From the IMG/VR virus record IMGVR_UViG_3300021335_000095, positions 1 through 23,422 of that record: a stretch of 23,422 bases of DNA; one strand, written 5' to 3'. This DNA comes from a virus. Positions 886-19,852 of the stretch are shown in pieces (within the stretch, counting starts at the first letter, position 1; the number at the start of each line of letters is the position of its first letter). The notes under the pieces were generated by a model. That model was given only the letters and a program-made list of their open reading frames with translations, did not search any database and was not told the DNA's origin. Made by a program: the position numbers and the translations under genes.

Positions 886-1215
886 ATGGACATCTATACA
901 ATATATGCCGATCATAACGAAGATACAGATGCACACAATTTTGTAAAACTTATGAATAAGTTTTTAAACAAGATGGTAGATCTAGGACGCATAGAAACTT
1001 TTAGAATAACAAGAATGAAACTAGGATTCCGTTCTATGGACTTGCCAGAATTTCGTATTGATATGGAGTTCAAGAATCTACAACAGCTTGACGATGCAAT
1101 GACTAGTGTTATACGCAATGAAGAAAATATCGAAGGCGAGCATGTAGGATTTAATCATCTTGTTGATGTAGAAACAATACAACATTTTTTATATAGGGAC
1201 TTTCCAGATGAATAA
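886..1215 (+). CDS. Small conserved protein, DUF6614-like
   Basis: A 109-residue soluble protein with no signal peptide or membrane segment. It starts MDIYTIYAD, has a basic central stretch (FRITRMKLGFRS) followed by LPEFRIDMEF, and ends HFLYRDFPDE. The order of an opening MDVYTVW-like strand, an ITRxKLGF motif, an LPEFxIxxEF strand and a closing ALYRDFPD matches what I recall of the uncharacterised DUF6614 family of proteobacteria. The alternating strand/helix pattern suggests a ferredoxin-like (dimeric alpha-beta barrel) fold. It is the first gene of a three-gene plus-strand operon, and its stop overlaps the start of the amidinotransferase-like gene by 8 bases, so the two are probably coupled in translation. 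Its role is unknown; an accessory part for the downstream enzyme is an inference from position only. Confidence 0.6.
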   Translation: MDIYTIYADHNEDTDAHNFVKLMNKFLNKMVDLGRIETFRITRMKLGFRSMDLPEFRIDMEFKNLQQLDDAMTSVIRNEENIEGEHVGFNHLVDVETIQHFLYRDFPDE

Positions 1216-2419: not shown

Positions 2420-2882
2420 GGACTACATCCGTAATTGGATATTAGAAGATTTAAGCAAGCCTGTTGCATTATTAAATAATTTACCAAAGTGTCCTTATGC
2501 TAAAAAAGCACTACTAGATTCAAAGGTAAAATTTTATACTGCTTCAGGCGATCTGAACTATATTGTAAAAGATATTACTAAACACTGGAATGACGAAGAA
2601 ATAGAAGTTGCTGTTATACATCTTGATTGGGCAGTGTCAACAAAGTCTATGGAAAGTATAATAAAAGTTTATAATAAACAATACAAAGATCAAGATTTTT
2701 TGTTTTTAGACGATCATGTTGATGTCGAAGAGTCTATTCAAGATATAGATTTTTCTAATGGAAAATATAACATACTCCTACTACAGCGTAAAAGTAAAAT
2801 TGACAATGCTCGTAAACAATTACAAAAACTAGATTATTATAAAAATTGGCCCGAAGATTATTACAACGATGTTGTGTTTTGA
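2394..2882 (+). CDS. Unknown protein with a PKCPYAKKAL motif
   Basis: A 162-residue soluble protein that I do not recognise. It overlaps the end of the amidinotransferase-like gene by 26 bases and has no ATG in that region. The longest frame begins at GTG 2394; TTG 2403, with AAGGTGG five bases before it, is an equally good start. The notable feature is NLPKCPYAKKAL at residues 29-40 with Cys33. A CPxAKKA pattern near the N-terminus recalls the W..CPFA(R/K)KA motif of small uncharacterised proteins such as DUF1415, but the rest cannot be matched by eye. The C-terminal half carries an acidic LDDHVDVEESIQDID stretch. Overlap and gene order suggest it works with the amidinotransferase-like enzyme (inference). 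Its 3' end runs into the convergent gene ending at 2861. Confidence 0.55.
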   Translation: MDKLTTEFEDYIRNWILEDLSKPVALLNNLPKCPYAKKALLDSKVKFYTASGDLNYIVKDITKHWNDEEIEVAVIHLDWAVSTKSMESIIKVYNKQYKDQDFLFLDDHVDVEESIQDIDFSNGKYNILLLQRKSKIDNARKQLQKLDYYKNWPEDYYNDVVF

Positions 2883-3637
2883 AAAGATTCAATCCCAGGC
2901 AACAAAAAATCTCTTATAATTTCTTCTTCATACTTAGGCTTGAAGTGAGCTGCGTCACATAATAAATGACGTGAAGGATACTGCTTACGTAAATACGATT
3001 TTGCATCTTTATAACTATTAAAATCCACATAATAGTCTACTTTGTTTTTTATCATATTATCAATTTTATCTTCAATAGATACTTCAGAATGATTCCACCA
3101 AACAATTTTAATATTAAGCATATGGCACAATTGTATTGTTTGAGTATGATCTACCGATGTCAAAAATTTATCCATTTCTTTTTGATTAGCTATAGCAGAG
3201 GCTGCTCTTCTCCAAAGTTTTATAATTTTATCTTGACTATAGTTTTGTATAAAAAATTTATAAGACATATAGTTCGGAAATTCAAAAATTTGTGTTAAAT
3301 CTTCTAAACTATTAACATCTTGTGCTATTTTCCATCTATTTGCATTTAATTCGTATCTACTACCAGTTGAAGGAACTGGTTTTGCAATATCAGCATTTAT
3401 ATTTTTTCTACTATGTATTGATTCAATTAGTGCAATATCAATATTATAAGTGTTTTTTAAATGTACAATAGATTGTAAAAAGCACTCCGATCCCATGCCA
3501 CCGTTGGCACAATTGTAAAATTTATACTCTGGTTTTTTATATTTTTCTAACCAGTGTGTAAAAAGAGGTGTAACACTACCGTCGTTAAGTTTGTGACGTC
3601 CTGTACTGTGACTGCTTCCTAAAATTCCTACTTTCAT
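2861..3637 (-). CDS. SGNH-fold hydrolase/acyltransferase-like protein
   Basis: A 258-residue protein with the SGNH block pattern. Block I is ILGSSHSTG at residues 5-13, with Ser9 as probable nucleophile and serine replacing the usual Asp of GDS. Block II is NGGMGS at 45-50, and block V is DAAH at 228-231, giving an Asp228-His231 pair. SGNH enzymes are serine esterases or carbohydrate O-acyl esterases/transferases; the substrate is not predictable here. No signal peptide or transmembrane segment is seen, so it is probably cytoplasmic. An AGGGA site lies five bases before the ATG, which overlaps the stop of the upstream gene by 4 bases. It is the last gene of the long minus-strand operon, and its end overlaps the convergent plus-strand gene by 22 bases. 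Confidence 0.65.
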   Translation of the reverse strand: MKVGILGSSHSTGRHKLNDGSVTPLFTHWLEKYKKPEYKFYNCANGGMGSECFLQSIVHLKNTYNIDIALIESIHSRKNINADIAKPVPSTGSRYELNANRWKIAQDVNSLEDLTQIFEFPNYMSYKFFIQNYSQDKIIKLWRRAASAIANQKEMDKFLTSVDHTQTIQLCHMLNIKIVWWNHSEVSIEDKIDNMIKNKVDYYVDFNSYKDAKSYLRKQYPSRHLLCDAAHFKPKYEEEIIRDFLLPGIESFQNTTSL

Positions 3638-4035
3638 AATGTCCCTATAATTTCAAATCCATTGAATTGCTGCTTATAATTATCAGGACCACCTAGATAT
3701 AGATAATCATAACCTAGTGCTTTGTAAGTTGCGCACTCGTGCTCTAAACTTTTAATTCCTAGCATTAAATTAGGATTATGATATGTCCATGCAAATTGAT
3801 AATTTTCTGCATTTTTATTATCATATCTCCCTATCATACTAAACGCTTCGATTTTATCATTATCATAGTAAGCTATAATATCATTGTTGTAAAATTCACT
3901 TTCAAACAATGGCATTACACTTTTAAATTTCTTATATTCACAATAGGTCTTATAGATACCTTGTAAATATTCAACGTCTATTTCATCATTAGTTAATATT
4001 TTTGCATTCATCAAACCGCTATAGTTTGTTTGCAT
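3634..4035 (-). CDS. GNAT-like acyltransferase domain protein
   Basis: The longest frame starts at a TTG (4059), but the ATG at 4033-4035 sits in a TGATG overlap with the upstream radical-SAM stop and is preferred, giving 133 residues. From DIIAYYDNDKIEAFSMIG (52-69) through FAWTYHNPNLMLGIKSLEHE (81-100) to ALGYDYLYLG (106-115), the pattern is that of a GNAT half-domain: a strand carrying the substrate or cofactor, then a helix, then the LGYxYLYLG strand also seen in the C-terminal domain of arginyl-tRNA-protein transferases. It is shorter than a full GNAT domain, so it may be a minimal or degenerate member. Position beside two radical-SAM enzymes and an SGNH protein suggests a tailoring acyl transfer, but the acyl donor is unknown. 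Confidence 0.45.
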   Translation of the reverse strand: MQTNYSGLMNAKILTNDEIDVEYLQGIYKTYCEYKKFKSVMPLFESEFYNNDIIAYYDNDKIEAFSMIGRYDNKNAENYQFAWTYHNPNLMLGIKSLEHECATYKALGYDYLYLGGPDNYKQQFNGFEIIGTL

Positions 4036-5567
4036 CAAATTAATTCTACAGAAACGCAATCGTACTCTTCCTCTTCATTATATTCAAGGATATTTTCAGG
4101 AAGCTTTTTACCTGTAATATTTTCATATTCGTCCATTAAATTTTTGTTTCGACGCTTGATCATCCACCACTTTTCGTCATAGTTTAATTGTTCTAGTTTT
4201 GCATATGCTTGTAATAATCTTACTATCCTTACTCTAATATTATTATTTTTATAAACCCAATTATCTGTAGCATCATCTCTTATGCCCATATCATGTGCCA
4301 TTGCTGTTATAGGAGTGCCGCTATATAATTGCATAGTTGGACCGAAACTAATTCTGCGCATATATTTAAATCCGTTTATTGGATTTATTTCAAAAAAACC
4401 TCTTTCTTTTAATTGATCAAGCATATTTAAAGTTTCTTGAAAATCTTCTTTTGTTTCTGTAGGATAACCTACTAGCATCATAATTCCAATTTTTACATTA
4501 TTAGCCTTCAGTTGCTCAAAAGTATACCACATGTCTTGGTTTGTAAAACCTTTTTGCATATGGTTTCTTACAGCTTCACTTGCAGATTCGATACCTATAG
4601 ATACCATATTAGCTCCGCCACGTTTCATAAGTGTAAAGTCTTCTGGCGGCATCTGTGTTTTACTACGAGCGATAAACTGACTTTGCCAACTCCAGTCTTT
4701 ATCCCCTGTTTCTTTTCTATAGTCAGCTAGAGTTTTACACATGTCTCTAAATGCTTTCATACTGCCGTTCACAAGACTATCAGTAAACTCAAATGCTTCT
4801 ATATTGTTATTTTTACGAACTTCGATGATTTCTCCTGCAATATGTTTGCCGCTTCTAAATCTATATTTTGGCCACATTGCAGCTACGTCACAAAATGTGC
4901 AATTTCTTACACATCCTCTGCTGCCTGTTATGTATGCAATACGCTCAGGACTTTGTTCTATACTATAATCGTTCCAATTGATATCAGAATAGTTAGGATA
5001 TAATATTGTATCAAGATCTAATACTTGGTGACTACCGCTGTCAATACCCGGATGATCTAAATTATTTTTAAGCAAAGAAATAAGGCTGTCTTCTCCGTCT
5101 CCTTTCACTATATGATCTGCATAATCGGCTATTTGTCTTTTAATACTAGAATCACTTCCAATTTGCATATTAAAAGTGCCTGCACCTCCTATAATAATTT
5201 TTTGCTCAGGACACAGTTCTTTAATCTTTCTTCCAAGAAATTTTGCAAATAATGCAGAATAATTACTGAATATACTTAGTCCGATATATTTTGCATTTTT
5301 TGAAATTAATTCTTTTGCCCAATATTCAACTCTTGATTCGATTGTAGGATAGAACTCTAACCACTTGTCTAATTTATACCATACTTGATCAGCCGCAAAC
5401 CAATGATGCTCATAATCTTTTCCGAGATGATGAAATATATCTATATTCAAATCAACAACAGACGCACTAAAACCATTTGCTTCGCAATGCGATTTTAACA
5501 CTGCTGGACCAACTGTAGGTGCATCAGGTTGTATCTTAGGTAATATACAGATTATGATATCTTTCAT
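4035..5567 (-). CDS. Radical SAM enzyme with cobalamin-binding-type N-terminal domain
   Basis: A 510-residue protein with two parts. Residues 1-165 form a Rossmann-like domain of the B12-binding radical-SAM type (VGPAVLKSHCEANGFSASVV at 19-38, YIGLSIFSNY at 94-103, KIIIGGAGTF at 123-132, KGDGEDSL at 155-162). No DxHxxG motif is visible, as is common in this class. Residues about 208-430 are the radical-SAM barrel with the [4Fe-4S]-binding motif CVRNCTFC (Cys219, Cys223, Cys226), then FEFTDS, a VSIGIESAS strand and MMLVGYPTET. This is the layout of PhpK/BchE/methylthiotransferase-like enzymes, which alkylate or rearrange carbon centres. The substrate is unknown. The ATG overlaps the preceding radical-SAM stop by 4 bases. 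Family assignment is firm; whether cobalamin is bound is not. Confidence 0.85.
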   Translation of the reverse strand: MKDIIICILPKIQPDAPTVGPAVLKSHCEANGFSASVVDLNIDIFHHLGKDYEHHWFAADQVWYKLDKWLEFYPTIESRVEYWAKELISKNAKYIGLSIFSNYSALFAKFLGRKIKELCPEQKIIIGGAGTFNMQIGSDSSIKRQIADYADHIVKGDGEDSLISLLKNNLDHPGIDSGSHQVLDLDTILYPNYSDINWNDYSIEQSPERIAYITGSRGCVRNCTFCDVAAMWPKYRFRSGKHIAGEIIEVRKNNNIEAFEFTDSLVNGSMKAFRDMCKTLADYRKETGDKDWSWQSQFIARSKTQMPPEDFTLMKRGGANMVSIGIESASEAVRNHMQKGFTNQDMWYTFEQLKANNVKIGIMMLVGYPTETKEDFQETLNMLDQLKERGFFEINPINGFKYMRRISFGPTMQLYSGTPITAMAHDMGIRDDATDNWVYKNNNIRVRIVRLLQAYAKLEQLNYDEKWWMIKRRNKNLMDEYENITGKKLPENILEYNEEEEYDCVSVELI

Positions 5568-6466
5568 CTTTTCTTCTTTTTAAACTTTTTTGTTATTCTT
5601 AAATCAGTGCCACAATTACACCACTCTCTTGGACACGTTTGCATTTTATTTCTCAGCTTATAACCTGTGTTTATATTTCCTAGTTTACCAAATGCTTTAC
5701 ATTCAGATCCGTATATATCTCCATTTGCTTCTATGCCTATATAATCTATGCCTGCTGCGCACAACCAACCCTTATATCTATTTTGCTTGTCACTAATAAG
5801 CTTTCTAGTATCAACTTCTCTTCCAAATAAAAGTGTACTTTCATTCCAATGCTTGTTATATTTACCAACATATTTGCTGTTACTAATATATTCTAACTGC
5901 TTTTTAGTATAACCATCAACTAGGCCTCCACTGCCTGTCCAGTCAGAAACAATTTTCATCCACATAATACAAGGTGTTTTCTTTTTAATAAAGTATTTGT
6001 GAACTTCTTTAACTTTATCAAAATATTTAGGAGGACACATCAAGTATAAAACTTTATTATATCCTTTTTCTTCAAGTATATCTATGACTTTTTCAATATG
6101 TAAATGATCTGCAAATTCAGGATGATAACTTATAACTACTTCGGATACATTTGCTTTCCAATCTTGCCAATAACGCAATGTCCTACTAGCATTAGTAGAA
6201 AAAGTTATAAAGGTATTATCTCCAGTTGCATTTATATCATTACAAAATTCTTCAAATTGCGGCCAGAGAGTAGGTTCGCCGCCCATTATATCAAATTTCA
6301 AAGGCAAATCTTCTCTAAACTTTTTTGCAATGTCTACAATTTTACTGTAATCAGAACTCCAACGATTGTATCCTGCATTTAATTCAGGTATACAATAACT
6401 ACATTTGTAGTTACAATATGTATGTGCTACCCAGGTGATACTTTTGTGCCTAGGTAGGGTAATCAT
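5564..6466 (-). CDS. Radical SAM enzyme with SPASM-like C-terminal cysteines
   Basis: The longest frame starts at TTG 6478; the ATG at 6464-6466, four codons inside and preceded by GGATAGGA, is preferred and gives 300 residues. The cluster motif is CNYKCSYC at Cys18, Cys22 and Cys25, followed by GGEPT at 62-66, which contacts SAM. Near the C-terminus seven to eight lines of residues hold Cys236, an IEANGDIYGSEC strand ending at Cys256, and CPREWCNC at 278-285. This is the ordering expected for a SPASM/twitch auxiliary Fe-S domain. SPASM enzymes act on peptides, small molecules or glycans. The tail ends in a lysine-rich run. Downstream comes the second radical-SAM gene with a 4-base overlap; upstream is a 73-residue ORF. 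Confidence 0.85.
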   Translation of the reverse strand: MITLPRHKSITWVAHTYCNYKCSYCIPELNAGYNRWSSDYSKIVDIAKKFREDLPLKFDIMGGEPTLWPQFEEFCNDINATGDNTFITFSTNASRTLRYWQDWKANVSEVVISYHPEFADHLHIEKVIDILEEKGYNKVLYLMCPPKYFDKVKEVHKYFIKKKTPCIMWMKIVSDWTGSGGLVDGYTKKQLEYISNSKYVGKYNKHWNESTLLFGREVDTRKLISDKQNRYKGWLCAAGIDYIGIEANGDIYGSECKAFGKLGNINTGYKLRNKMQTCPREWCNCGTDLRITKKFKKKKR

Positions 6467-6480
6467 TTTCCTATCCAAAA

Positions 6481-6702
6481 TTATTCCAATATTAGTTTTA
6501 TATCTTTTCCAGGTCCTGTACGACTAGGCAAATCGCCATACTGATCAATATACCATTCAATTACAGCACGATACCAATTTTGACTGTTATGATGAGCACG
6601 TTTGTTAAATTGCCATATGTTATTATTTGTAGCTTGCATTGTACTTAGTGCTCTGGCACTTTCCTTTTGCAATTCTCTTAATTCTAAATCATCTAAATTC
6701 AT
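6481..6702 (-). CDS. Small hypothetical protein, 73 aa
   Basis: A 73-residue soluble ORF starting at ATG 6702 in an ATGA overlap with the methyltransferase-like gene and ending 14 bases before the preferred start of the SPASM-like radical-SAM gene. It begins with an acidic leucine-rich helix (LDDLELRELQKE), continues through a Q/N-rich middle (MQATNNNIWQFNKRAHHNSQ), and ends in a Trp/Tyr-rich segment (NWYRAVIEWYIDQYG) and a charged tail. No family is recognised. Its tight packing supports a real gene. Being next to a radical-SAM enzyme it could be a small partner or substrate peptide, but it has no cysteine and no evident leader/core boundary. Confidence 0.55.
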   Translation of the reverse strand: MNLDDLELRELQKESARALSTMQATNNNIWQFNKRAHHNSQNWYRAVIEWYIDQYGDLPSRTGPGKDIKLILE

Positions 6703-7598
6703 TTTTTACCTATCAACATAAAACGTTTGTATCCTTGTAACTGTAATTCGCCTTCGTACAGTATTTCACTCATTTTAAATTTTTTCTTCATAGCATCTAT
6801 ACTAGTAACACAGTTTACATGTTCTGGAATATCTAAAAGGTTATTACTTTGTATGGCAATAATACTGTCCTGTTTTATATTGTAAAACCACTCTTCGTCC
6901 ATATGTTCTGCACTTGTGTTTATAATAAGATCAGGCTCGAATTTAGTTTGAAATGTTTCACCTTTTTTATTAGTAAGTGGTATAATGCAATGATTGAGAA
7001 ATTGTTCAATATCTTCTATATTAGCACATGAACTTTTTACATTCCAGTCCTCAATATGGTGGTTGTTGACAATCTTATCACTTATCTCACATGCAACAGA
7101 ATCTTGATCTACAATTCTTACTTTTTTAAATTCTACTAGCTTTTCTAAAAATAAAACTAACTGACCCATCCAACCTGCATAAATTAATATGTTATCAAAT
7201 CTTTTATCAATATTTTTTAATTCCTGCACAAGCCATATTTTACTTTGCACTTGACCTCTACTAAATCCATCAGCTATGTGTGTAATATCATATTCGTTAC
7301 GTATGTACTTATGAATCATATCGAGCAAAAATTCATTAGGTATACGCTTTCTCATTATACTACAAGTTTCTAAGAAAGTTATATCTTCACCTTCTAGAAA
7401 TTTAAAATAAAAATTAAATCTAGGAAGCCTATCTTCCTCGTCACCTGAATCACTTAAACATAGATTTTTTACACTATTAGCAGTGTTATCGCTAAAGTAA
7501 ACACTCAGCAACTGATCAGTAAAAAGCTTTGCTTTATGATTTTTAGTAAATCTAAAATATTCCTGTAATCCATATAACCAACTAGGAGGCTGTGTCAT
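6699..7598 (-). CDS. SAM-dependent methyltransferase-like protein
   Basis: A 299-residue protein whose central part looks like a class I methyltransferase fold. FDNILIYAGWMGQL at residues 135-148 is in the place of motif I (glycine-rich SAM loop, here AGWMG). VRIVDQDSVACE at 160-171 carries the acidic residue after strand 2. PDLIINTSAEHM at 222-233 resembles motif IV. Residues 1-110 are an unfamiliar helical extension rich in aromatic and charged residues. An AAAGGAG site eight bases before the ATG firmly supports the start, although it overlaps the upstream glycosyltransferase-like stop by 17 bases. Substrate unknown; sugar or small-molecule methylation would suit the neighbourhood. Fold inferred from motifs only. 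Confidence 0.6.
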   Translation of the reverse strand: MTQPPSWLYGLQEYFRFTKNHKAKLFTDQLLSVYFSDNTANSVKNLCLSDSGDEEDRLPRFNFYFKFLEGEDITFLETCSIMRKRIPNEFLLDMIHKYIRNEYDITHIADGFSRGQVQSKIWLVQELKNIDKRFDNILIYAGWMGQLVLFLEKLVEFKKVRIVDQDSVACEISDKIVNNHHIEDWNVKSSCANIEDIEQFLNHCIIPLTNKKGETFQTKFEPDLIINTSAEHMDEEWFYNIKQDSIIAIQSNNLLDIPEHVNCVTSIDAMKKKFKMSEILYEGELQLQGYKRFMLIGKK

Positions 7599-8265
7599 TA
7601 AACTTCTCCTTTAACCAATCAAAGTTGTTTATCTGTTTTAAAGCGGCAACATTACCTTGATTAGAAAGGCCGTACTCCATACCAGCCCTAGCACCGAGAA
7701 TGGCATACTTGCCAAAGTCTCGATCGTGTCCCACGGTTGTCCAAGTTTTAAGTCTTTCATCAGTTTCTCCTGTTTTCTGTCTATCAATACTCTTACTTGC
7801 TAATTTGGCACATTCTCTAAATGCACTTTTCCAAGTGTTAAATGGATCAGTGTTGTATAATGTTATGTTCGATATCTGCTGCACAGCTTTAAACTTTTCA
7901 CTAATGCTTGTAGTCATATCAGGCTTACTTAGATCCATATCAATGGTCATCTGACGTGGAAATAATTTTACGCCGCCATATCCATAAATTAAGTCATTTA
8001 CTGGATTCTGGCTACGCCATACATGTACAACATCTAAGTCCCAATCATCTACTTTATAGTCAAAATTGAATTTATCGTCAATTACAGCATCGCCGTCTAC
8101 GATCCAAAACATTTTAGTAAAGCATAATTTAGCTGCGGCGATGTGTGCTTGATGTATTCCTTTTACACCGTGTACTCTTTTAGCCGTAGGGAAACGTTCT
8201 TTAAGTGCAGCAAAGTTTTCGTCTGCGTTTGGCTCTTGGTAACTAATAAAGACAATATCATACAT
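7582..8265 (-). CDS. Glycosyltransferase-like protein, EPNA/AKRVHG family
   Basis: A 227-residue protein that opens with strand IVFISYQEPNADENF and AKRVHGVKG, followed by IVDGD (Asp57 and Asp59 forming a DxD metal/nucleotide-sugar motif). YGYGGVKLFP and WKSAFRE lie in the second half, and GKYAILGARAGMEYG near the end. The arrangement of a GT-A Rossmann start, a DxD, and a GG motif in the acceptor-side half suggests a GT-A glycosyltransferase. It is clearly paralogous to the 305-residue protein at 12520-13437, which has every one of these motifs in order. Relatives are, from memory, common in T4-like marine phages, where the sugar is not known. It is cytoplasmic by sequence. Its stop overlaps the methyltransferase-like gene by 17 bases. 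Confidence 0.7.
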   Translation of the reverse strand: MYDIVFISYQEPNADENFAALKERFPTAKRVHGVKGIHQAHIAAAKLCFTKMFWIVDGDAVIDDKFNFDYKVDDWDLDVVHVWRSQNPVNDLIYGYGGVKLFPRQMTIDMDLSKPDMTTSISEKFKAVQQISNITLYNTDPFNTWKSAFRECAKLASKSIDRQKTGETDERLKTWTTVGHDRDFGKYAILGARAGMEYGLSNQGNVAALKQINNFDWLKEKFNDTAS

Positions 8266-8268
8266 ATC

Positions 8269-9072
8269 TTATTTTAACCTCTTTTTTAATTTTTGTCTAG
8301 AAATATCTTTCCATATCAGCTGTGCATTGATTCTATTATCATTTCTACCACAATGTAATAAATCTCTTGCAGTATTTGTATGTTCTAAAAATTCACACTC
8401 GAAATAATGACTAGTTCTTTCAAAAAATGTAGCATAATATGTCCTTGTATCTTTCCATAACTGTCGAACTGCTTCATTGTAGTACAATGATTTAATAATA
8501 GGATTCATTTCACTCCTATTGTGTTCTTTAAAATATTTTGCACTTGACCATATGCCATGATACTCTGGACGATGATCTAAAAATTCAATAAGTCTATCAA
8601 TATTAGTCCATAAATTAACAACAGCCCACGGTTTACCAAAATGTTTACGTAAATTTACATTGTTAAACATCATTGCATCTAATCCTGCACCAGACAATCC
8701 TAGATTCACTACCTCTCGACCGCTGAGTCTAGATAAAAAGTGTGTAATAGTTTCATCTTCAGCAACACCTATACCTGCTGTCATACTACAACCTAACACT
8801 ACTATTGCATTAGGCCAGTCAATTTCATTCCACTCTTTTGCTCTGTAGCCATTAGAATTTACTTTATATTCAATCTGTTTAGTTTTATAATGCCAATCAA
8901 ATGGCTGTGTCTTAAGATGCTTTTCAAAATTTTCTGGAGAGTCAGTATTTGCAAATCTAGTATCAACTTTGTGAGGATCTAGAGGGTGGTGATGCGTAAG
9001 AAACGCAGTAGGAATAAATTTATTTTCTTTTATATATTCAGGTAACGGCGTAGCACCATTTATTTTAAACAA
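8269..9072 (-). CDS. SGNH-fold protein with GCS block
   Basis: No ATG exists in the first part of this frame. TTG 9111 gives a 47-base overlap with the upstream gene, whereas TTG 9072 has AGGA nine bases before it and overlaps only 8 bases; I prefer the latter (267 residues). Motifs are VVLGCSMTAGIGV at residues 91-103 (Ser96 nucleophile, Cys in place of Asp in GDS), NLGLSGAG at 123-130 (block II), LWTNIDR (block III-like) and DLLHCG at 237-242 (Asp237, His240). Residues about 10-75 form an N-terminal extension. It is a member of the GCS-type SGNH group often seen in phage and polysaccharide loci, probably an esterase or O-acyltransferase. It lies between another SGNH gene and a glycosyltransferase-like gene. 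Confidence 0.7.
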   Translation of the reverse strand: MFKINGATPLPEYIKENKFIPTAFLTHHHPLDPHKVDTRFANTDSPENFEKHLKTQPFDWHYKTKQIEYKVNSNGYRAKEWNEIDWPNAIVVLGCSMTAGIGVAEDETITHFLSRLSGREVVNLGLSGAGLDAMMFNNVNLRKHFGKPWAVVNLWTNIDRLIEFLDHRPEYHGIWSSAKYFKEHNRSEMNPIIKSLYYNEAVRQLWKDTRTYYATFFERTSHYFECEFLEHTNTARDLLHCGRNDNRINAQLIWKDISRQKLKKRLK

Positions 9073-9925
9073 TCGAGTTTTTCCTGATATGCTGTTGTAT
9101 TTGATATGCAATTCTTTGATGTCCTAATTTTGTAGGATGAGCACAATTTGTAATATACTCACTCGGCTCTGCAAGATTTGTATAGTATGGATAAAAACCT
9201 CCATCCTTTAACTCTGGCTTGCCTTCTAAATGTAAAAGATCTTCCATAAGTGTATCACAGCCTTCTGGTGCAAAATAATTATCCCAAGGAACTGATTCTG
9301 TTAGATCTGTAATTTCTGGAAGTTCTCTGTGCATCCTTTCTCTAACAAATCTGTTATCGAATGCATTTGCAAAAATAAAATCAAATCCCATACTTTTAGC
9401 AAACGTATATGCATTTTTTACAGCAATAATTGTTTCAATAAATGCAAATTTTTCACTGTATAGATCTCTAGCATAAACTTCCCATAATTTTTTATTAGTT
9501 GCATTTTTATCCCAATGATTAGGCCACATTGTATAAAAATGATGATGGTCAGGAAAATCTCTGTTTACAAAATCAAAACGTTCTAGTCCACTTAAAGCAA
9601 AAATTACAATACCATGTCTTGCATTAGCGAATTCTAGATCAGGATATAAATGTAGTTCACTTGTTGCAGCCCTATTTCCTGTGCCCATAACTCCTAAATT
9701 TATAGGCTTATAGTCTTTATAATAATCTTTACATAGCACATTTAACCAACTATTTTCATATGCCTTTATCTGTAGCGATCTGTCCATTGTAAGCACGTCT
9801 ATTTTGCCATTATGTTCTCTGTAAAGTTCAGGATCCCAACTACCTATACCGTGTGTAAAACTGTCACCTAATCCGATAATAATTTTATCGCCATCATTTA
9901 TTGTTGGAAGTATTTCTTTAAACAT
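9065..9925 (-). CDS. SGNH-fold protein with GDS block and Asn at the catalytic Asp position
   Basis: The longest frame begins at GTG 9946, but ATG 9925 has a GGAG site six bases before it and an 8-base overlap with the upstream stop, so it is preferred (286 residues). Block I is complete, IGLGDSFTHGIGS (Ser22). Block II is NLGVMGTGN and block V reads NCAHPTKLGH with His263. The residue three before this histidine, normally Asp, is Asn260. The block layout indicates an SGNH hydrolase or sugar O-acyltransferase, and the substitution could lower or alter catalysis. The family also contains members that work with a Ser-His dyad. Soluble; adjacent to the GCS-type SGNH gene downstream. Confidence 0.7.
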   Translation of the reverse strand: MFKEILPTINDGDKIIIGLGDSFTHGIGSWDPELYREHNGKIDVLTMDRSLQIKAYENSWLNVLCKDYYKDYKPINLGVMGTGNRAATSELHLYPDLEFANARHGIVIFALSGLERFDFVNRDFPDHHHFYTMWPNHWDKNATNKKLWEVYARDLYSEKFAFIETIIAVKNAYTFAKSMGFDFIFANAFDNRFVRERMHRELPEITDLTESVPWDNYFAPEGCDTLMEDLLHLEGKPELKDGGFYPYYTNLAEPSEYITNCAHPTKLGHQRIAYQIQQHIRKNSIV

Positions 9926-11150
9926 TTTGTGCTCCAAACTTATCACTATAAATTTTTTCTATTGCTGCTACTGTGTCATTCTTGCGCAAGCTTCTGTTTT
10001 TTAGCCTATTGTAGTTATGATTTAAAATAGGCTGCAAATTTCTAAACCATTTCTTTAGGTTATCTTTCTTTTTTAGTCTCTGCAACTCTTTTATTATTGC
10101 ATCCATTCTATCAAACGTATCTAATTCATCATATGATTCGTCAATAAATCCTTCGAAAGTTTTATACCCCAATTCCTTAAGGTTCTTTAAACTACCCTTG
10201 TTACCTAGGATTATAAAAGGATGCCTTGATGCTATTGTTTTAAATGTTTTTTCGCTAATGAAACAAGTATTAGATTCTTCTGAAAAGTGTGCTTCACTAA
10301 TTACCGAAATATATGAATCTAAACAAATATCATATCTGATTCTTCTTATATAAAAGTTGTCATCGTGTAACGTATTAGGCTCATCTATCCATCGAGGTAA
10401 TGTTTTATTAGCTTGTAAAATAGTCTCCGGATCAATACTTTGTCCATCCATATAATGTCCACTAGAAAAATTAGGCATAGAGATTAATCCGTCATCTAAT
10501 AATCCTGCACGAAACAATTTGGTATAAAACCACGCTCTATGATTTCTGTCTCTTTTATTCAAGCAATTAAAAAGTTTGATATTGTTCTTTGCCTTATATT
10601 TGATATTATTTTTTACACTTGTATCTAGCTCTAATTCTTGTGATAATTTAAACATATCTTTTTCGAAATGTACATACGGCAAAACATGTAGTAATTTATC
10701 TTGCGGATTATCAATCAACCATGTTTCATAGTCTTTTTTTACATCCATATTTCCTGTAATATATATTATATTAGTAGGATCTATTTTCCATCTTGCACAT
10801 TCTTTATGAAAATATTGGAACAGCCATGTCTGATGATATCCTTCCAAACTTTGGTCTAGTAATAATAATGCTTTATTATTTTGTAAATCGCTAAGATACT
10901 TTGGAGACAAATATTTAAATAGAGTAACAACTCTACTAAATGGCTTATGTCCTGACCAGTCTTCGGGACAATGATTAACACCACTAGGGATTATATACTT
11001 GTCATCTACTTCATCTATATTGTGTAATTTTAAGTGTCGCCAATGATTCAAAATAGGAGCAGGGGCAAATCTTGTTATCCCAGATTTGCATATATCTTCA
11101 CAAAGATAAAAGTTTCTACGTTCGTCTACGTTTTCAAATACTAACTTCAT
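9918..11150 (-). CDS. Glycosyltransferase-like protein, fucosyltransferase/exostosin-type C-terminal motif
   Basis: The longest frame starts at TTG 11162, but ATG 11150 forms an ATGA overlap with the twitch radical-SAM stop and is chosen, giving 410 residues. Residues 287-340 hold a conserved block: EAHFSEESNTCFISEKTFK, then HPFIILGN, LKELGYKTF and FIDESYD. The SEKTFK...PFI..G..G.L..L...GF.TF..FIDESYD pattern is that of the nucleotide-sugar-binding half of fucosyltransferase (GT10)-like and exostosin-like glycosyltransferases. The N-terminal 200 residues form the acceptor-side domain and are not recognisable by family. It lacks signal or membrane segments. Its place between radical-SAM and SGNH genes fits a glycan-assembly role. 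GT-B-type activity is likely; donor and acceptor are unknown. Confidence 0.7.
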   Translation of the reverse strand: MKLVFENVDERRNFYLCEDICKSGITRFAPAPILNHWRHLKLHNIDEVDDKYIIPSGVNHCPEDWSGHKPFSRVVTLFKYLSPKYLSDLQNNKALLLLDQSLEGYHQTWLFQYFHKECARWKIDPTNIIYITGNMDVKKDYETWLIDNPQDKLLHVLPYVHFEKDMFKLSQELELDTSVKNNIKYKAKNNIKLFNCLNKRDRNHRAWFYTKLFRAGLLDDGLISMPNFSSGHYMDGQSIDPETILQANKTLPRWIDEPNTLHDDNFYIRRIRYDICLDSYISVISEAHFSEESNTCFISEKTFKTIASRHPFIILGNKGSLKNLKELGYKTFEGFIDESYDELDTFDRMDAIIKELQRLKKKDNLKKWFRNLQPILNHNYNRLKNRSLRKNDTVAAIEKIYSDKFGAQNV

Positions 11151-12523
11151 AATTCTGCACAATAATCTATAAAATTTTTCATTTCAGGAAAAGTCTCATA
11201 AATGCTTGTATTTCTCCTGTTGTCGTGTTCTGTAAACCAGGCATAAAAATCTTGCCGTGCTGTAACTAAATCTTGTTCATTATAAAATGTACCTTTCATA
11301 TAATCTACTACACGTTTAAACTTTTCATACTCCATTTGGCTAAATTTAGTTTTATCGTTGTCATCTAAATTTTCATTTATGAAATCTAAATGTTTTTCCA
11401 TGTATGGCATATATTCTACTTTAGGTAAAATATTCATATCATATATGCTAGGTTCTTTCAAATGCGGAGTATCAAATCTAATAAGTTGCCATTGTGATTG
11501 CGTGTCGCTATTATACTTTCTTCTCCATTCTAATATCTTGTTTAATAGTGTGTCAAAACTAGTAACACTAAAAATATTAAATGTTATCATAAATGTTACA
11601 GGCATTTTAGTAGTAGTAAGATAATAATCTAAATTACTTTCCCATAAATCTATATCTAATCCATGTCTTGGATATTCTGCACGTTTTGTCCAAGTGTCGA
11701 TGCTAGTATAAAGTTTAAAACTTCTAATCTTTTTTTCGTCTTTTAACTTTTTTATCTTGTCGGTAAACTTTTTAACAAGACTTTGTTTTACACCTAAATT
11801 ACTATTAAGTTCTATTTGTATGTGAGGCTTAGGATCTGCATCAAGATCGTCTAATAACTTCCACGTTGTAGAATGCATTAATGGTTCGCCGCCAGTAATG
11901 CGTAGTATATTCAGTGTTTTAGATAACTCAGGCCACCATTCTAGCCATGCACTTACATATGGATTATCTTCTTCTTTTGGTTTTAAGTTAATCCAATCTA
12001 TATCCTGTTTATGAGTGGTGCTCATATCATAAGGACCGTGTTTTTCTATTTCTTTCCAATATCTACTGCTTGCTTTTGGATGACAATATCCACACTTAAA
12101 ATTGCATTCATTTGAAAAACTAATTTCAACATATTCTGGATTTACGTCAAACTCCCAGCCGCCTTCTTTTATTTCTTGTAATCTTTCTGGTGTGTAAATA
12201 CTTGCTGTTTTTTGTTTGCGATCACTTATATAATCTTTACCCATAGCTTCAATTTTCCAGCAATAACTACAACCTGCAGGTTTTTTGCCTTCTAGCATGT
12301 CTTTTCTTTGAGACTTTTTCTCTAAAGTATTGTGCAATGCACTTGGATTATTTTTTAATTCTTGTAGATTAATTTTGTGAGGTGCTGGATGATAACAACT
12401 GTGTGTTTCTCCTGTTTGCAAATATATCGTTGTGTGATGCCATTTAGCCATACAAAAAGTAGGAGACATTTCTGCCTCTGTCTTTTTCATTACTTCTTGT
12501 ATATTTTTTAATTCAGTATTCAT
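11147..12523 (-). CDS. Twitch domain-containing radical SAM protein
   Basis: A 458-residue protein of the N-terminal-twitch type. Residues 20-100 carry four cysteines in a short auxiliary-cluster region: Cys24 and Cys43 (TFCMAKW, HSCYHP), then CSYC at 85-88. The radical-SAM motif CNFKCGYC (Cys140, Cys144, Cys147) follows with GGEPL at 211-215, then the barrel with FKLYTSIDTW and FMITFNIFS strands. I recognise this as the marine-phage and bacterial family annotated as twitch domain-containing radical SAM protein. The reaction is unknown, but relatives commonly lie among glycosyltransferases in surface-polysaccharide loci. Here it sits between two glycosyltransferase-like genes. The ATG overlaps the upstream stop by 4 bases; no strong Shine-Dalgarno site is seen, so translational coupling is likely. 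Confidence 0.9.
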   Translation of the reverse strand: MNTELKNIQEVMKKTEAEMSPTFCMAKWHHTTIYLQTGETHSCYHPAPHKINLQELKNNPSALHNTLEKKSQRKDMLEGKKPAGCSYCWKIEAMGKDYISDRKQKTASIYTPERLQEIKEGGWEFDVNPEYVEISFSNECNFKCGYCHPKASSRYWKEIEKHGPYDMSTTHKQDIDWINLKPKEEDNPYVSAWLEWWPELSKTLNILRITGGEPLMHSTTWKLLDDLDADPKPHIQIELNSNLGVKQSLVKKFTDKIKKLKDEKKIRSFKLYTSIDTWTKRAEYPRHGLDIDLWESNLDYYLTTTKMPVTFMITFNIFSVTSFDTLLNKILEWRRKYNSDTQSQWQLIRFDTPHLKEPSIYDMNILPKVEYMPYMEKHLDFINENLDDNDKTKFSQMEYEKFKRVVDYMKGTFYNEQDLVTARQDFYAWFTEHDNRRNTSIYETFPEMKNFIDYCAEL

Positions 12524-13437
12524 TCAGGATCTATAATAAATTGTTGATTAGGATTGCGGCTAGGGTTTTGATAAACTGTTTTGAAAAACTTGCTTTGATT
12601 ACCATCTAACGGATTTTCAGCTATAGGCAGATTTAGTTCATCTATTAAATTTATACCTAATTCAACAATTTCATTATCGATATCTGTATCTTTAACTTCT
12701 GAATTCCACATATTGTTTAAATATTCAAAATCACGAACGTTAACAAAGTCCCAATCAGTACACATAGTTTTGTAAAGACCTTGTCTTGCTCCGTATATTG
12801 CCCAATCACCGTTATCAACATCCATACCAACCATTAGCCATATCCATAATCGATGTAGATTTTTCCAATGGCCTTTTAGTAGTTCTTGCTTTGTAGGCTT
12901 AACACCTCGATCCAGTGCCATTTTTACACCTTCACGGAAACCTGCTCTCCATGCTTGCTGTGCATTAGCATTGTTGTGTACTGTACTATAACAACTATTC
13001 TGCTGTATGTATTGTAAATCCCAGCAAAAATCTACTTGAGCATGAACATTATCAGGATCTGCATTTTCGTGAGTACGCATATTAAGAACATAGTCTTTAG
13101 GCCAACACTTTAATCCACCATTTCCGTACATTAGTCCATTAATGACATTTTTGCCACACCAACTAATAACACTGTGTTCTAGATCTGCATGTTCGTCAAA
13201 ATCTATTTCTTGTTGTAAGAAACTTTCTTTTACAATATTATCACCGTCAACAGTTATAAACCTATCTGTTTCGCTTAATTCAGCACATGCCTTATGTGCA
13301 GCATCACTACCTTCTACACCATGCACACGCTTGGCCCACGGCACTTTACTACAAAGGTCCGCATAGTTTTTTTCTGCATTAGGCTCATCATATGATAGAT
13401 ATATAATGTCACAATCTAATACTTTAAACTTTTTCAT
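12520..13437 (-). CDS. Glycosyltransferase-like protein, EPNA/AKRVHG family, longer paralogue
   Basis: A 305-residue paralogue of the 7582-8265 protein. Shared motifs in order are IIYLSYDEPNAEKNY, AKRVHGVEG, ITVDGD (Asp64 and Asp66), YGNGGLKCWP, AWRAGFRE and GDWAIYGARQGL. Compared with the shorter copy it has an extra C-terminal tail of about 65 residues (from roughly residue 240), ending NQQFIIDPE. The DxD and the N-terminal strand suggest a GT-A glycosyltransferase acting in the cytoplasm. A GAGG site precedes the ATG; the start overlaps the upstream gene by 14 bases and its stop overlaps the twitch radical-SAM ATG by 4. Divergence between the paralogues is large, so duplication was not recent or they were acquired separately. 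Confidence 0.7.
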   Translation of the reverse strand: MKKFKVLDCDIIYLSYDEPNAEKNYADLCSKVPWAKRVHGVEGSDAAHKACAELSETDRFITVDGDNIVKESFLQQEIDFDEHADLEHSVISWCGKNVINGLMYGNGGLKCWPKDYVLNMRTHENADPDNVHAQVDFCWDLQYIQQNSCYSTVHNNANAQQAWRAGFREGVKMALDRGVKPTKQELLKGHWKNLHRLWIWLMVGMDVDNGDWAIYGARQGLYKTMCTDWDFVNVRDFEYLNNMWNSEVKDTDIDNEIVELGINLIDELNLPIAENPLDGNQSKFFKTVYQNPSRNPNQQFIIDPE

Positions 13438-14053
13438 CTAGAACCTCATATTTGTATACATCGAAGTATGTAGAAGTATATACACTAATTTCTGTTTTGT
13501 CAAACTCGAATTGATAATTAAAGGGAAAATATATTGATCCGTGTTCAATTAAATTTCCTATACTACAACTGATAGTTCTATATAAAATATTAGGATCATT
13601 TTTTCTTGTAATACTGAAAAATAAATTTGTTGTAATCCTTACAGATTCTTTTTTAAGATTTTCAATAATTTTATCAGACAGTGTAACAATCCAAGTGCTA
13701 TTAGCAAAATCTTGTTGCAGCAAAACATCAACCTTTTTTGTTTTTTGATGTTTTGATATTTCTTTAAAAGTTACAATAGATCTTTCATCTTCTTCTTGTG
13801 CTCGTTTTATTTCTTTTAGATTGAGTTTTTTAGTGACTATATCATACTCAACTGTAAAATCATCTAAACCCTTTTCACCTTGCATAATAGATGCAACTTT
13901 ACTAGGATCAACTGTAATATAAGAATACGAATCATCTTGTGTCCATGCTCCTACTTTCTCAATTCTTCCAGTTTCCTGATCAAAATAAACATAGGTCTTT
14001 GTATCAATTTTTGTTTCTTTAAACAAGTCATATAAAGATTTTACACTATCCAT
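13424..14053 (-). CDS. Hypothetical protein, possibly T4-like marine phage structural or accessory
   Basis: A 209-residue protein without a recognised catalytic motif. The first 50 residues are beta-rich with an aromatic pattern (TYVYFDQETGRIEKVG, SYSYITVD), the centre is charged and helical (LKEIKRAQEEDERS), and the rest is again beta-rich (STWIVTLSDK, NLFFSITRKNDPN, SIYFPFNYQFEFDK). An N-terminal FDQxTGxI-like strand and the bipartite beta layout recall small proteins beside tail-fibre genes in cyanomyoviruses, but no family is claimed. The start is well supported by AAGGA eight bases before the ATG and by an 8-base overlap with the glycosyltransferase-like gene upstream. It has no signal peptide. 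Confidence 0.55.
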   Translation of the reverse strand: MDSVKSLYDLFKETKIDTKTYVYFDQETGRIEKVGAWTQDDSYSYITVDPSKVASIMQGEKGLDDFTVEYDIVTKKLNLKEIKRAQEEDERSIVTFKEISKHQKTKKVDVLLQQDFANSTWIVTLSDKIIENLKKESVRITTNLFFSITRKNDPNILYRTISCSIGNLIEHGSIYFPFNYQFEFDKTEISVYTSTYFDVYKYEVLDEKV

Positions 14054-14885
14054 TTACTATATCCTTAATACGGTTCTGAAGATAGTTTTTTATAAATGTA
14101 TCTTCTGTATAGTGAAATATACCAGATTGGGTATAATTACCGACTTTAAGTTTACAATCGTCAGTAAGATAACACGCAACATAGTCTTGCCAACTATTTA
14201 CAGATCTATGCCAATTTTGTATTTTTGGTTTCATATGAACAAATTTAGGTAAACTTGTAGACGTTCCTGTAACTTGTTTTTCACATTCCATTATTTTAAT
14301 TGCAATTGCAGCACAAACATCAATACTACAAAAATCAGGACGATTATATTCTAAATGCTGTTTATAAAAATCTTGCCAATTTTGTACAATAATATCTAAC
14401 CAGTTATAAAATTCTTTTGCTAGATCACTTTTTTTGAAATAGTGCATTCCTACATATGTGTCAGGTAGAGAATTTTTTACAAAAGTTTTCCTATAATATC
14501 TATCTGTAATTATTTCTCCTCTATATGTAATAGGTTTTGTTGTAAAATATAAATCATAAGATCCTAGTGCGGAGAAATATTTGTCCAAATCTTCACAAAC
14601 TAAAACATCTGTATCTAATACAACTGTTTCTTCAAACGGAGTCAAATTATAAATTTTTGAACGATTACTAATTTTCCAATTTTCATTAGCTGCAAGATCA
14701 TTGCCGGTGATTTCTATAATATGATCGAAAAACTTTTTGTACTTTGAAGGAATAAAATCATTTGTTGCAATAGCAATCTGTATATTAGAATTGTGTGCCT
14801 TTATAGTAATTGCAGCATAACATGCTTGCTCAACATAATTCGTGTCTTCGGTATTCTGTGCAAATAAAAATATACCTTTACTCAT
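14046..14885 (-). CDS. Glycosyltransferase-like protein (GT8-like DxD), tandem copy 2
   Basis: The longest frame starts at TTG 14891. ATG 14885, two codons inside, is preferred because it gives the MSKG N-terminus shared with the upstream tandem paralogue and an 8-base overlap with its stop (279 residues). Motifs are SKGIFLFAQN, QACYAAITIK, a RSKIYNLTPFEETVVLDTDV segment with Asp91 and Asp93 as the DxD, and GMHYFKKSD later. A DxD just after the PFExTVVLD strand is typical of GT8 and related GT-A enzymes that use a metal-bound nucleotide sugar. The C-terminal HMKPKIQNWHR segment may be the second metal or donor site (HxxxxxxW). Soluble, probably cytoplasmic. Donor sugar unknown. Confidence 0.7.
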   Translation of the reverse strand: MSKGIFLFAQNTEDTNYVEQACYAAITIKAHNSNIQIAIATNDFIPSKYKKFFDHIIEITGNDLAANENWKISNRSKIYNLTPFEETVVLDTDVLVCEDLDKYFSALGSYDLYFTTKPITYRGEIITDRYYRKTFVKNSLPDTYVGMHYFKKSDLAKEFYNWLDIIVQNWQDFYKQHLEYNRPDFCSIDVCAAIAIKIMECEKQVTGTSTSLPKFVHMKPKIQNWHRSVNSWQDYVACYLTDDCKLKVGNYTQSGIFHYTEDTFIKNYLQNRIKDIVNG

Positions 14886-15729
14886 ACCCAAACTCTTTAT
14901 TAATTGCTCTTTCGAGACTGAACTTATTCATAATGTGTACAGTTCTACCCTTTATTCTAATAGGTGTATATTCTCCTAAATAGTTTTCCTTTTCTATTAA
15001 GAAAAACATATCGTCGCCATTCATGTCCCATAGCACATCGTTATCTGTACTAAACCACATATATCCAGGCATAGGATGTGCAAAACTACCTTTTGAAAAT
15101 CCGTTCATAATATGAATAGCAATACTAAATGCATAATCATTTCTAAACATAGGATTTGTTATTTGATAAACTTTTCTATAGTGTACATAATTGTCTTGTA
15201 TATGTTTAACTAGATCAAAAAATATTTTATTAGCTTCTGTCTTTCTAAAAAATACACAAGTGGCCCAATAAAATGGTATACTACTATCACTAATGTTTTC
15301 GAATTCTATTTCGCTTCTGACTCTTGATATGTCAGTTGCGTCTTTATAAATTAAGAAGTCGTGTTTACTATTGAAACATTCTGCTAAATGATTATTACTA
15401 ATAATATAATCACTATCTATAACTAGCGTTTCATCATACGGTGACAAATCATAAGAATCTGCTCTACCAATATTTTTAAAAGATGCAGTTTTGGTCCACA
15501 TTGCACCGTCTTTAAAGTTTCTATTGTTGTTTGCTTCGATAGTTTCAATTTTAATAATTTTGTCTAAAACAGATACGTCATATCTTTTCTTTAAGTATTC
15601 GACATTTTCAGTAGCGATTGAAACTGGTACATTTAGATATTGTTTTACACGCACTGCTGCAAAATAAGCCTGCTTAACATAATCTAATTGGTCATTGTTT
15701 CTAGCAAAAATTAAAACGCCTTTACTCAT
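14878..15729 (-). CDS. Glycosyltransferase-like protein (GT8-like DxD), tandem copy 1
   Basis: A 283-residue protein that begins MSKGVLIFARN and continues QAYFAAVRVK, with SYDLSPYDETLVIDSDYI holding the DxD at Asp105 and Asp107. The late segment GRTVHIMNKFSLE corresponds to the HMKPKIQNW region of the downstream copy. All landmarks line up with that copy, so the two are a tandem duplication or an ancient paralogous pair; an insert near residues 64-82 (ANNNRNFKDGAMWTK) lengthens this one. The fold is GT-A, probably GT8-like; substrate unknown. ATG 15729 overlaps the upstream 116-residue gene by 8 bases, with GAGAA upstream as a weak Shine-Dalgarno site. Confidence 0.7.
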   Translation of the reverse strand: MSKGVLIFARNNDQLDYVKQAYFAAVRVKQYLNVPVSIATENVEYLKKRYDVSVLDKIIKIETIEANNNRNFKDGAMWTKTASFKNIGRADSYDLSPYDETLVIDSDYIISNNHLAECFNSKHDFLIYKDATDISRVRSEIEFENISDSSIPFYWATCVFFRKTEANKIFFDLVKHIQDNYVHYRKVYQITNPMFRNDYAFSIAIHIMNGFSKGSFAHPMPGYMWFSTDNDVLWDMNGDDMFFLIEKENYLGEYTPIRIKGRTVHIMNKFSLERAINKEFGYE

Positions 15730-16072
15730 GATTTACAAGTTTCTCTACCGATCTATTAGTTTTAAGTGCGTAATACTCTGTATAATATTCGTTTGATGCT
15801 TGCATATACTGATCTACAATATCGTCATAAAATTTTGACAAATCTTTAATTTGAGCAGGCAAATTATTATCATCAAGTAATACTGCTTCAGTCTGTCCTC
15901 GGTGTATCATGAATCCAACAAAAGAAATTAATTCTCTATCTATAGTAAATTGACAGCCGTCAGCAAAATAAAGTGTATCTTCAAAATACTTTTCTTTGAT
16001 AATCTGTTTTTGATTATTGAGTGTAACTATATAGTTTGAAAACTCTAAAGCTTTATCAAGTCGTTCGTCCAT
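15722..16072 (-). CDS. Small hypothetical protein heading the biosynthetic operon
   Basis: A 116-residue soluble protein with no recognised domain. It is helical at both ends (LDKALEFSNYIVTLNNQKQ; KFYDDIVDQYMQASNEYYTEYYALK), with a short central strand/turn region around TLYFADGCQFTIDRELISFVG. Such small proteins with one cysteine between two helices occur beside fibre genes in marine T4-like phages, where assembly or chaperone roles are sometimes guessed; nothing here proves one. It is the first gene of the sixteen-gene minus-strand unit and follows a late-promoter candidate. Its AAGGAG site lies eight or nine bases before the ATG and is enclosed in a possible small hairpin. Confidence 0.55.
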   Translation of the reverse strand: MDERLDKALEFSNYIVTLNNQKQIIKEKYFEDTLYFADGCQFTIDRELISFVGFMIHRGQTEAVLLDDNNLPAQIKDLSKFYDDIVDQYMQASNEYYTEYYALKTNRSVEKLVNHE

Positions 16073-16094: not shown

Positions 16095-16100
16095 AGTATA

Positions 16101-16108
16101 CATTTATA
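16101..16108 (-). promoter_or_regulatory. T4-type late promoter candidate for the 16-gene operon
   Basis: Minus-strand TATAAATG matches the T4 late consensus TATAAATA in seven of eight positions and lies 28 bases before the ATG at 16072, inside the 56-base gap that separates structural genes from the biosynthetic cluster. As no later gap in the operon exceeds about 14 bases, it may drive everything to 2861. Confidence 0.55.
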
Positions 16109-16128
16109 TTACAAAAATGTCAAGCTTA

Positions 16129-17376: not shown

Positions 17377-17386
17377 TCAATTCTCC

Positions 17387-17437
17387 GTTGACAGTATATT
17401 TATTAAAATTATATACTAGTTTAATTTTTTTGTCAAC
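17387..17437. repeat. Nested inverted repeat spanning a late promoter
   Basis: The gap between two structural genes holds GTTGACA (17387-17393) and its exact complement TGTCAAC (17431-17437). Inside it AGTATAT (17393-17399) pairs with ATATACT (17411-17417) around an 11-base AT loop. The minus-strand octamer AATAAATA lies partly in the inner arm. The outer arm includes the TGA stop of the 300-residue gene. A long T run on the plus strand (17424-17431) sits between inner and outer right arms, so it does not form a standard terminator for the minus-strand transcript. Confidence 0.55.
17397..17404 (-). promoter_or_regulatory. T4-type late promoter candidate
   Basis: Minus-strand AATAAATA (preceded by T) differs from the T4 late consensus by one base and is placed 20 bases before the ATG at 17376, in the 56-base gap between the two paralogous structural genes. 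Confidence 0.5.
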
Positions 17438-19844: not shown

Positions 19845-19852
19845 TATTTATC
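19845..19852 (-). promoter_or_regulatory. T4-type late promoter candidate
   Basis: Minus-strand GATAAATA, one base off TATAAATA, lies 24 bases before the ATG at 19820 in the 42-base gap between two fibre genes. Confidence 0.55.

Follow-up and report, generated by a model that had tools for sequence, protein, structure and literature searches.

Temperate phages carry serotype conversion modules, gtrABC, whose glycosyltransferases (GTs) change the sugars on the host surface and prevent superinfection. The available part of PMC7029224 proposes that the host recognition cluster (HRC) of pelagimyophages serves to change the host surface and to exclude superinfecting phages, and the lipopolysaccharide (LPS) clusters of cyanomyophages are thought to change the O-antigen (PMC3037559, PMC7824862). 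A T4-like genome of about 183 kb, TARA_ERS488813_N000010, is credited with 12 radical S-adenosylmethionine (rSAM) genes in the accessible sections of its 2017 description (PMC5332604). Here we describe a computational analysis of a sixteen-gene operon at positions 2861-16072 of the virus record IMGVR_UViG_3300021335_000095; the window analysed is the complete record of 23,422 nt. We give about an even chance to the reading that this operon, which carries an early-type promoter, assembles and chemically tailors a glycan, most likely on the host envelope, and so alters the receptor.

Sixteen open reading frames (ORFs; g1 to g16), all on the minus strand, fill the block from 16072 to 2861, and since neighbours overlap or are separated by at most 3 nt, the tightly packed block of the original prediction stands at its exact coordinates. 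Over-long GTG or TTG starts probably lie behind some of the long overlaps (g8/g9, g7/g8). A tblastn search with g1, g2, g5, g6 and g7 gave no match in INPHARED (50,697 phage records), and IMG/VR yielded hundreds of relatives. In these loci the order of genes is, with few exceptions, fibre-(fibre)-g1-GT8-GT8-g4-G5, where G5 and G10 denote the families of g5 and g10. In a separate, GT8-anchored sample of 80 loci, the g1 family (g1 itself, 15722..16072, is a phage-specific protein of 116 aa and the first block gene) stood immediately upstream of the GT8 genes in 78, and two GT8 genes were present in 78. Among the 60 loci testable for G5 and for the N-terminal-twitch rSAM class (N_Twi_rSAM), G5 lay within three genes in 58 and slightly further in the remaining two, and an N_Twi rSAM lay within five genes in 57. 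Behind G5 the loci vary, with between one and five rSAMs accompanied by g7, UDP-sugar dehydrogenase, SGNH genes and a G10-g11-(g12) submodule; an N_Twi rSAM was near G10 in 56 of 61 G10 loci. The core is thus not scattered among relatives, and some independent scattering is seen in the variable tail. The nearly invariant core order, kept in hundreds of relatives in viral contigs, bears out the earlier view of a genuine, functionally coherent set that goes beyond chance.

Capsid and core genes read in the contigs of relatives assign the carriers of the block to uncultured marine phages of the T4 superfamily. A T4-type Gp23 is encoded by 11 of 14 long relatives, and two genomes, G005 (185 kb) and G008, both contain gp20, gp21, gp46, gp47 and a gp55-like late sigma factor, to which G005 adds gp17, gp18 and gp41. 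Neither csgG nor psbA was found in any of 22 partial records, which leaves a pelagimyophage or cyanophage identity unsupported. The Pfam search for gp14 was silent in every record, controls included. Two relatives, G001 (381,886 bases) and G002 (275,366 bases), are of jumbo-phage size and both have an A-type Fe-S carrier gene; as an obligate partner of the block this carrier was rejected, the gene being present in just 3 of 22 records. Metagenome-assembled genome (MAG) contigs were uninformative about the host, as they fell into four unrelated bins (Neomarinimicrobiota, Neisseriaceae, Rickettsiales and Bdellovibrionales).

The 56-nt gap upstream of g1 contains the sequence TTGACA-N17-TATACT (16095..16123, minus strand, read 16123-16095), a match to the sigma-70 promoter at 11 of 12 positions. 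A late-promoter octamer had been claimed at this place, but the exact octamer TATAAATA occurs nowhere in the window, and the best match before g1, TATAAATG at 16101-16108 (7/8), is located inside the spacer of the sigma-70 promoter. In a survey of g1 upstream regions, allowing at most one mismatch and with shuffles as the control, sigma-70 sites were found in 48% of 83 distinct regions (0% in shuffles) and in 65% of 54 further non-redundant regions (0.2% in shuffles); in the further-loci sample 31% of G10 genes were also preceded by such a site. Across the 83 g1 regions TATAAATA was not enriched. The late-type ATAAATA was distributed differently: it precedes f3 homologues in 89% of cases (4% in shuffles), F13, a gene family upstream of the fibres, in 86%, and f4 homologues in 44%, g1 in 8% and the remaining core genes in about 0%. 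Both G005 and G008 have perfect sigma-70 sites before gp55 and gp47, a one-mismatch site before gp41, and TATAAATA before the sheath gene. Throughout these two genomes TATAAATA is depleted (7 copies versus 40 expected, and 9 versus 33, respectively), which suggests selection against spurious late promoters. The copies that remain after this about 4-6 fold depletion stand mostly just before genes, structural ones included. As sigma-70 sites mark early and the octamer late genes of T4 type, the site at the head of the block is of the early type, and the best reading of this promoter type is that the block would be transcribed early from its own host-type sigma-70 promoter. Late expression, as first proposed, is not supported: the promoter conserved before g1 is of the sigma-70 type, and the late octamer goes with the fibre genes.

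Four of the five GTs originally claimed find support, namely g2 and g3 as GT8 and g5 and g10 as GT-A-type enzymes, and g7 stays unconfirmed. The alignment profile of g2 (14878..15729) and its paralogue g3 (14046..14885, with an ATG two codons past the TTG) matched glycogenin-1 with an E value of 1.4e-4, and D105-x-D107 is invariant; neither has a Pfam GT8 match, so they are distant GT8 members. For g5 (12520..13437), an alignment of 52 sequences has 48 invariant columns, D64-x-D66 among them, and the predicted model (predicted local distance difference test score, pLDDT, 89; predicted template modelling score, pTM, 0.89) has a GT-A-type domain and, towards the C-terminus, a helical part. Foldseek gave the peptide S-glycosyltransferases SunS/ThuS as best matches of the model (E about 2e-4), VIA-align gave B4GALNT1 (Z 10.4, root-mean-square deviation 3.0 Å over 141 residues), and the best structural neighbours are mostly glycosyltransferases. 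With low TM-scores (about 0.3) and moderate Z, the model points to a GT-A-type fold and to nothing narrower. The g5 sequence profile met nothing but weak, unrelated chains in PDB, and those of g7 and g10 had no relative there. BLAST linkage, the tree and a DGD motif make g10 (7582..8265) a paralogue of g5 and, by that kinship, a putative GT-A-type enzyme. The remaining candidate, g7 (9918..11150), belongs to a family of 130 members with a conserved SEKTFK...PFI...G motif, and searches of PDB, Pfam and NCBIfam gave it no match that passed the cut-off.

All three rSAM proteins of the original prediction were confirmed, each with a CxxxCxxC motif. Membership of N_Twi_rSAM was defined as a score above the curated cut-off of 170 bits over the full profile NF033640; g6 (11147..12523) scores 317 bits over profile positions 1-397 of 398. 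The second enzyme, g13 (5564..6466, with an ATG four codons in), matches PF04055 at 1.2e-10, and the third, g14 (4035..5567), is a B12-binding, methyltransferase-like rSAM enzyme (PF04055 7e-17, B12-binding domain 8e-5). Members of N_Twi_rSAM above cut-off were present in 22/22 long relatives with 2-17 matches each, and up to 17 matches to a single rSAM family is what marine T4-like viral records can thus hold. Our literature search found no paper naming N_Twi_rSAM and no reaction or pathway assigned to the class; the link of these enzymes to two ancient paralogous GTs suggests for the family a class of substrates that can be tested.

A genome scan with the G10 profile led to chromosomes of Bdellovibrionota, in which G10 and/or G5 stand beside an N_Twi rSAM, a g13-like rSAM and g11, sometimes also a g14-type B12-rSAM, with no fibres; predatory-type bacteria thus carry a chromosomal version of the rSAM-GT cluster. 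Two homologues of g14 in bacterial islands match at 1e-110. In a phylum sample the G5/G10 family was present in 18 of 291 Bdellovibrionota genomes. All 15 checked G5/G10-bearing genomes had an N_Twi rSAM above cut-off, versus 3 of 15 genomes without the family (Fisher p about 1e-5, for genomes that are not independent and for negatives that were the first 15 listed), and in 11 of the 15 the two lay within 10 kb of each other, versus about 1.0 expected. The N_Twi rSAM islands include genes for a carbamoyltransferase, a SIS-domain (GmhA-like) protein, a DegT aminotransferase, a nucleotidyltransferase and GT2 enzymes, as well as an Asp/Asn hydroxylase and a homologue of gB, a neighbour of the phage block. 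A protein of Dyadobacter joins a G10 domain to one of GT2 type, and the neighbouring genes resemble GTs and methyltransferases. In the tree G5 and G10 are old paralogues, each with a phage part and a bacterial part, so in this sample their pairing predates the split of phages and bacteria. Subfamilies of N_Twi rSAMs intermix phage and bacterial rows, and the supported branches force at least 15 label changes. For g1, the two GT8s and g4 the bacterial islands examined hold no counterpart, except for L231 (G190:C21:120000-139000), a fibre-bearing, phage-like contig.

That contig, from a Bdellovibrionales MAG, has a fibre gene, g1, two GT8s, g4, G5 and rSAMs, with a fused G10 gene adjoining, and its genome bin is without a Gp23 match; it may be a prophage remnant, an odd phage or a misbinned contig. 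One 30-kb chromosomal island (G223:C1:745000-774000) contains about thirteen N_Twi rSAM genes and is among the densest arrays seen. At L252:14451-14756 (minus strand), in a genome without G5/G10, a 101-aa protein that by eye resembles a PqqD-type recognition element (RRE) of ribosomally synthesised and post-translationally modified peptide (RiPP) pathways adjoins an N_Twi rSAM, a hint that enzymes of this class may in some cases have peptide substrates.

The SGNH, methyltransferase, GNAT and fifth-GT labels in the block are weak. Of the three claimed SGNH proteins, g9 (8269..9111) matches Lipase_GDSL_3 at 4.4e-4, below the Pfam cut-off, and the other two are recognised by motif alone: g8 (9065..9946; SGNH-like esterase/acyltransferase) by a GDS block and N-x-x-H, g16 (2861..3637) by a GSS block and D-x-x-H. 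The methyltransferase-like and GNAT-like proteins likewise survive as sub-threshold matches, with g11 (6699..7598), the Rossmann/methyltransferase-like partner of g10 whose bacterial homologues adjoin G10/G5, matching Spermine_synth at 0.003 and the small, acyltransferase-like g15 (3634..4035, with an ATG eight codons in) matching ATE_C at 0.004. Catalytic motifs are intact in the block enzymes. The AlphaFold model of g4 (13424..14053; pLDDT 89) has two domains, the C-terminal one a beta-sandwich, and its BFVD matches are exclusively uncharacterised phage proteins; as PDB holds no match under E 1e-3, the label of structural protein is unsupported. The conserved 73-aa protein g12 (6481..6702) is present in 27 of 160 loci at 67-80% identity, and on its uniform conservation, with no variable core, it was rejected as a RiPP precursor peptide.

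In the mechanism that we favour, transcription of the block would start from the sigma-70 promoter at an early stage of infection, and read-through may add to it later. The soluble GT8 and GT-A enzymes g2, g3, g5 and g10 would add sugars to an acceptor, most likely a glycan of the host envelope in the form of lipid A-core or capsule precursors that still face the cytoplasm. The rSAM enzymes g6, g13 and the B12-dependent g14, together with the SGNH proteins, g11 and g15, could then epimerise, dehydrogenate, methylate or acylate the product, which host machinery would export, and the changed receptor would block adsorption of competing phages. Glycan chemistry is suggested by the GT folds and by sugar enzymes in bacterial islands and in sister loci, the latter carrying UDP-glucose/GDP-mannose dehydrogenase, NAD epimerase, DegT aminotransferase, a DAHP/KDO8P-synthase-family gene and 2-oxoglutarate (2OG) oxygenases. 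The promoter type and the fibre-less bacterial homologues point to the host envelope as acceptor, and superinfection exclusion is proposed after published work on islands of marine phages (PMC7824862 and the available part of PMC7029224). Of the original alternatives, fibre glycan or host-surface modification late in infection, host-surface remodelling stays the leading option and its lateness is dropped.

Several points weigh against this proposal. Hydropathy of all 16 block proteins revealed no membrane-spanning segment, hence no flippase, polymerase or membrane GT, and the block has no gene for nucleotide-sugar synthesis, a lipid carrier or any other membrane protein. Any surface route to the candidate acceptor would therefore rely on the host, and the 'full pathway' first suggested is not what the window holds, as genes for nucleotide-sugar synthesis, lipid carrier, export, flippase or polymerase are missing from it. 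Read-through from fibre transcription into the block late in infection is possible, since no terminator is shown between f5 and g1, and in sister loci ATAAATA precedes the UDP-sugar dehydrogenase in 43%. The fibre gene f5 itself has a perfect sigma-70 match (17436-17408), which shares the f4-f5 gap (17377-17436) with the octamer AATAAATA at 17397-17404; this last fibre gene may have two promoter types, and sigma-70 sites are rare before other f4 homologues. No reaction is known for N_Twi rSAMs, whose substrate may be a protein or peptide. Finally, fibre genes are always linked to the block, which also fits decoration of the virion.

Phage GTs encoded near structural genes are known to glycosylate the virions of mycobacteriophages. 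By analogy, the tail-fibre proteins encoded next to the block could be the substrates of its enzymes, for glycosylation and radical modification alike, and the virion would then bind its receptor differently or be shielded. The near-invariant fibre-g1-GT8-GT8-g4-G5 linkage argues for this, and so do the soluble appearance of all block proteins, as cytoplasmic protein acceptors require, the likeness of the GT8s to protein-glycosylating glycogenin and of g5 to peptide S-glycosyltransferases, and the phage-only g4 with its beta-sandwich. We nevertheless consider it unlikely, because g1 is under a sigma-70 and not a late promoter, the bacterial G5/G10/rSAM/g11/g14 clusters have no fibres, and the nucleotide-sugar genes of sister loci, like the sugar genes of bacterial islands, point to polysaccharide.

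Less probable still is that N_Twi rSAM maturases and GT-A enzymes make a peptide or small-molecule natural product such as a toxin, a signal or an iron-binding compound. The model TIGR03975, which covers RiPP C-methyltransferases, matches g14 at 6e-28, below its cut-off, g13 weakly resembles several RiPP maturases, g5 resembles SunS/ThuS, and the RRE-like protein of L252 is consistent with such a route. No precursor peptide was found, however, in a search that did not systematically cover very short ORFs, g12 being uniformly conserved and limited to 27/160 loci, and the islands hold sugar-type enzymes. A passive variable island, in which loosely selected auxiliary genes fill head space with no common pathway, agrees with the high gene turnover behind G5 and with the 'stuffer DNA' considered for cyanophage LPS genes (PMC3037559), but is very improbable given the core order invariant in 78/80 loci, the conserved promoter, the intact catalytic motifs and bacteria that hold the same partner set. 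Hypermodification of phage DNA against nucleases by early GTs and rSAMs suits the early-type promoter and has a precedent in the T4 alpha- and beta-glucosyltransferases (a-gt, b-gt), but it has hardly any chance of being right, as the block is without a base hydroxymethylase or nucleotide kinase and neither the bacterial chromosomal counterparts nor the SGNH/DegT/KDO8P-type genes fit it.

Fibre genes precede the block on the same strand, as the original prediction stated. The first, f1 (22021..23422, 5' end off the contig), is a tail-collar/fibre gene with a Phage Tail Collar domain (PF07484, 1.2e-14), and it is followed by the fibre-like structural genes f2 (19863..22016; its family lies upstream of g1 in 107 of 160 relative loci), f3 (18348..19820; late-type octamer GATAAATA at 19845-19852), f4 (17433..18335; recognised from relative loci) and f5 (16129..17376), a second f4-like gene. 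On the other side, gB (1208..2419, plus strand) is convergent with the block and by eye amidinotransferase-like; one homologue lies inside the bacterial N_Twi-rSAM island L247 (5e-35) and others in 12 phage loci. It is probably part of the same system, which would then extend past the block of sixteen genes originally delimited. Directly upstream of gB, at 886-1215 (plus strand), a small protein matches PF20319 (DUF6614) at 2.5e-22. The 3' ends of the convergent gC (plus strand) and g16 (minus strand) share 22 bases, 2861-2882.

On the reading as host-envelope remodelling, this phage operon would no longer count as 'late virion decoration' and would belong to a programme of host modification of the early type. 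In its widest form, which we put forward tentatively and somewhat short of even confidence, the proposal is that an undescribed system, consisting of G5 and G10, g11 and expanded N_Twi/B12 rSAMs and common to T4-superfamily marine phages and Bdellovibrionota, makes a radical-tailored surface glycan, and that the phage version, joined to the core of g1, two GT8s and g4 behind the fibres, is turned on at an early stage and remodels the envelope of the host.

Compared with gtrABC, the block shares phage GTs proposed to alter the host surface, but it stands in a T4-like context and has neither membrane flippase nor membrane GT. The cyanomyophage LPS clusters of P-SSM2, S-SSM7 and S-SM2 are likewise multi-gene GT/sugar clusters in T4-like marine phages; they lie near hli/phoH/tRNAs and include sugar-nucleotide synthesis (PMC3037559, PMC7824862), whereas the present block is dominated by rSAMs, psbA was absent from the 22 partial records and no tRNA was found in the window. 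Genomes of the TARA_ERS488813_N000010 type, which are T4-like and rSAM-rich as the block carriers are, possibly represent the same phage group by this analogy; the accessible sections of PMC5332604 read the rSAMs as Fe-S metabolism and contain no tie to GTs, fibres, promoters or bacterial clusters. The HRC, in the available part of PMC7029224, is a hypervariable island of T4-like marine phages with fibres, GT8, UDP-glucose dehydrogenase and rSAM cassettes, and the present block also combines tail fibres, GTs and rSAMs in one variable island. The HRC lies there between VrlC and gp14, whereas in G005 the block is at 27-47 kb and gp13 at 142 kb; by this location, judged from gp13, the block is not the HRC, and csgG is absent from the partial records. 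Its conserved core order, sigma-70 promoter and bacterial counterpart are features that the same part of PMC7029224 does not contain. The host-recognition and LPS islands of marine myophages are the closest known kind of locus to the block, and its rSAM-GT module, common to phages and bacteria, appears to be undescribed so far; our literature search found no paper on rSAM, GT and SGNH genes together in Bdellovibrio or linking N_Twi_rSAM to the GT pair.

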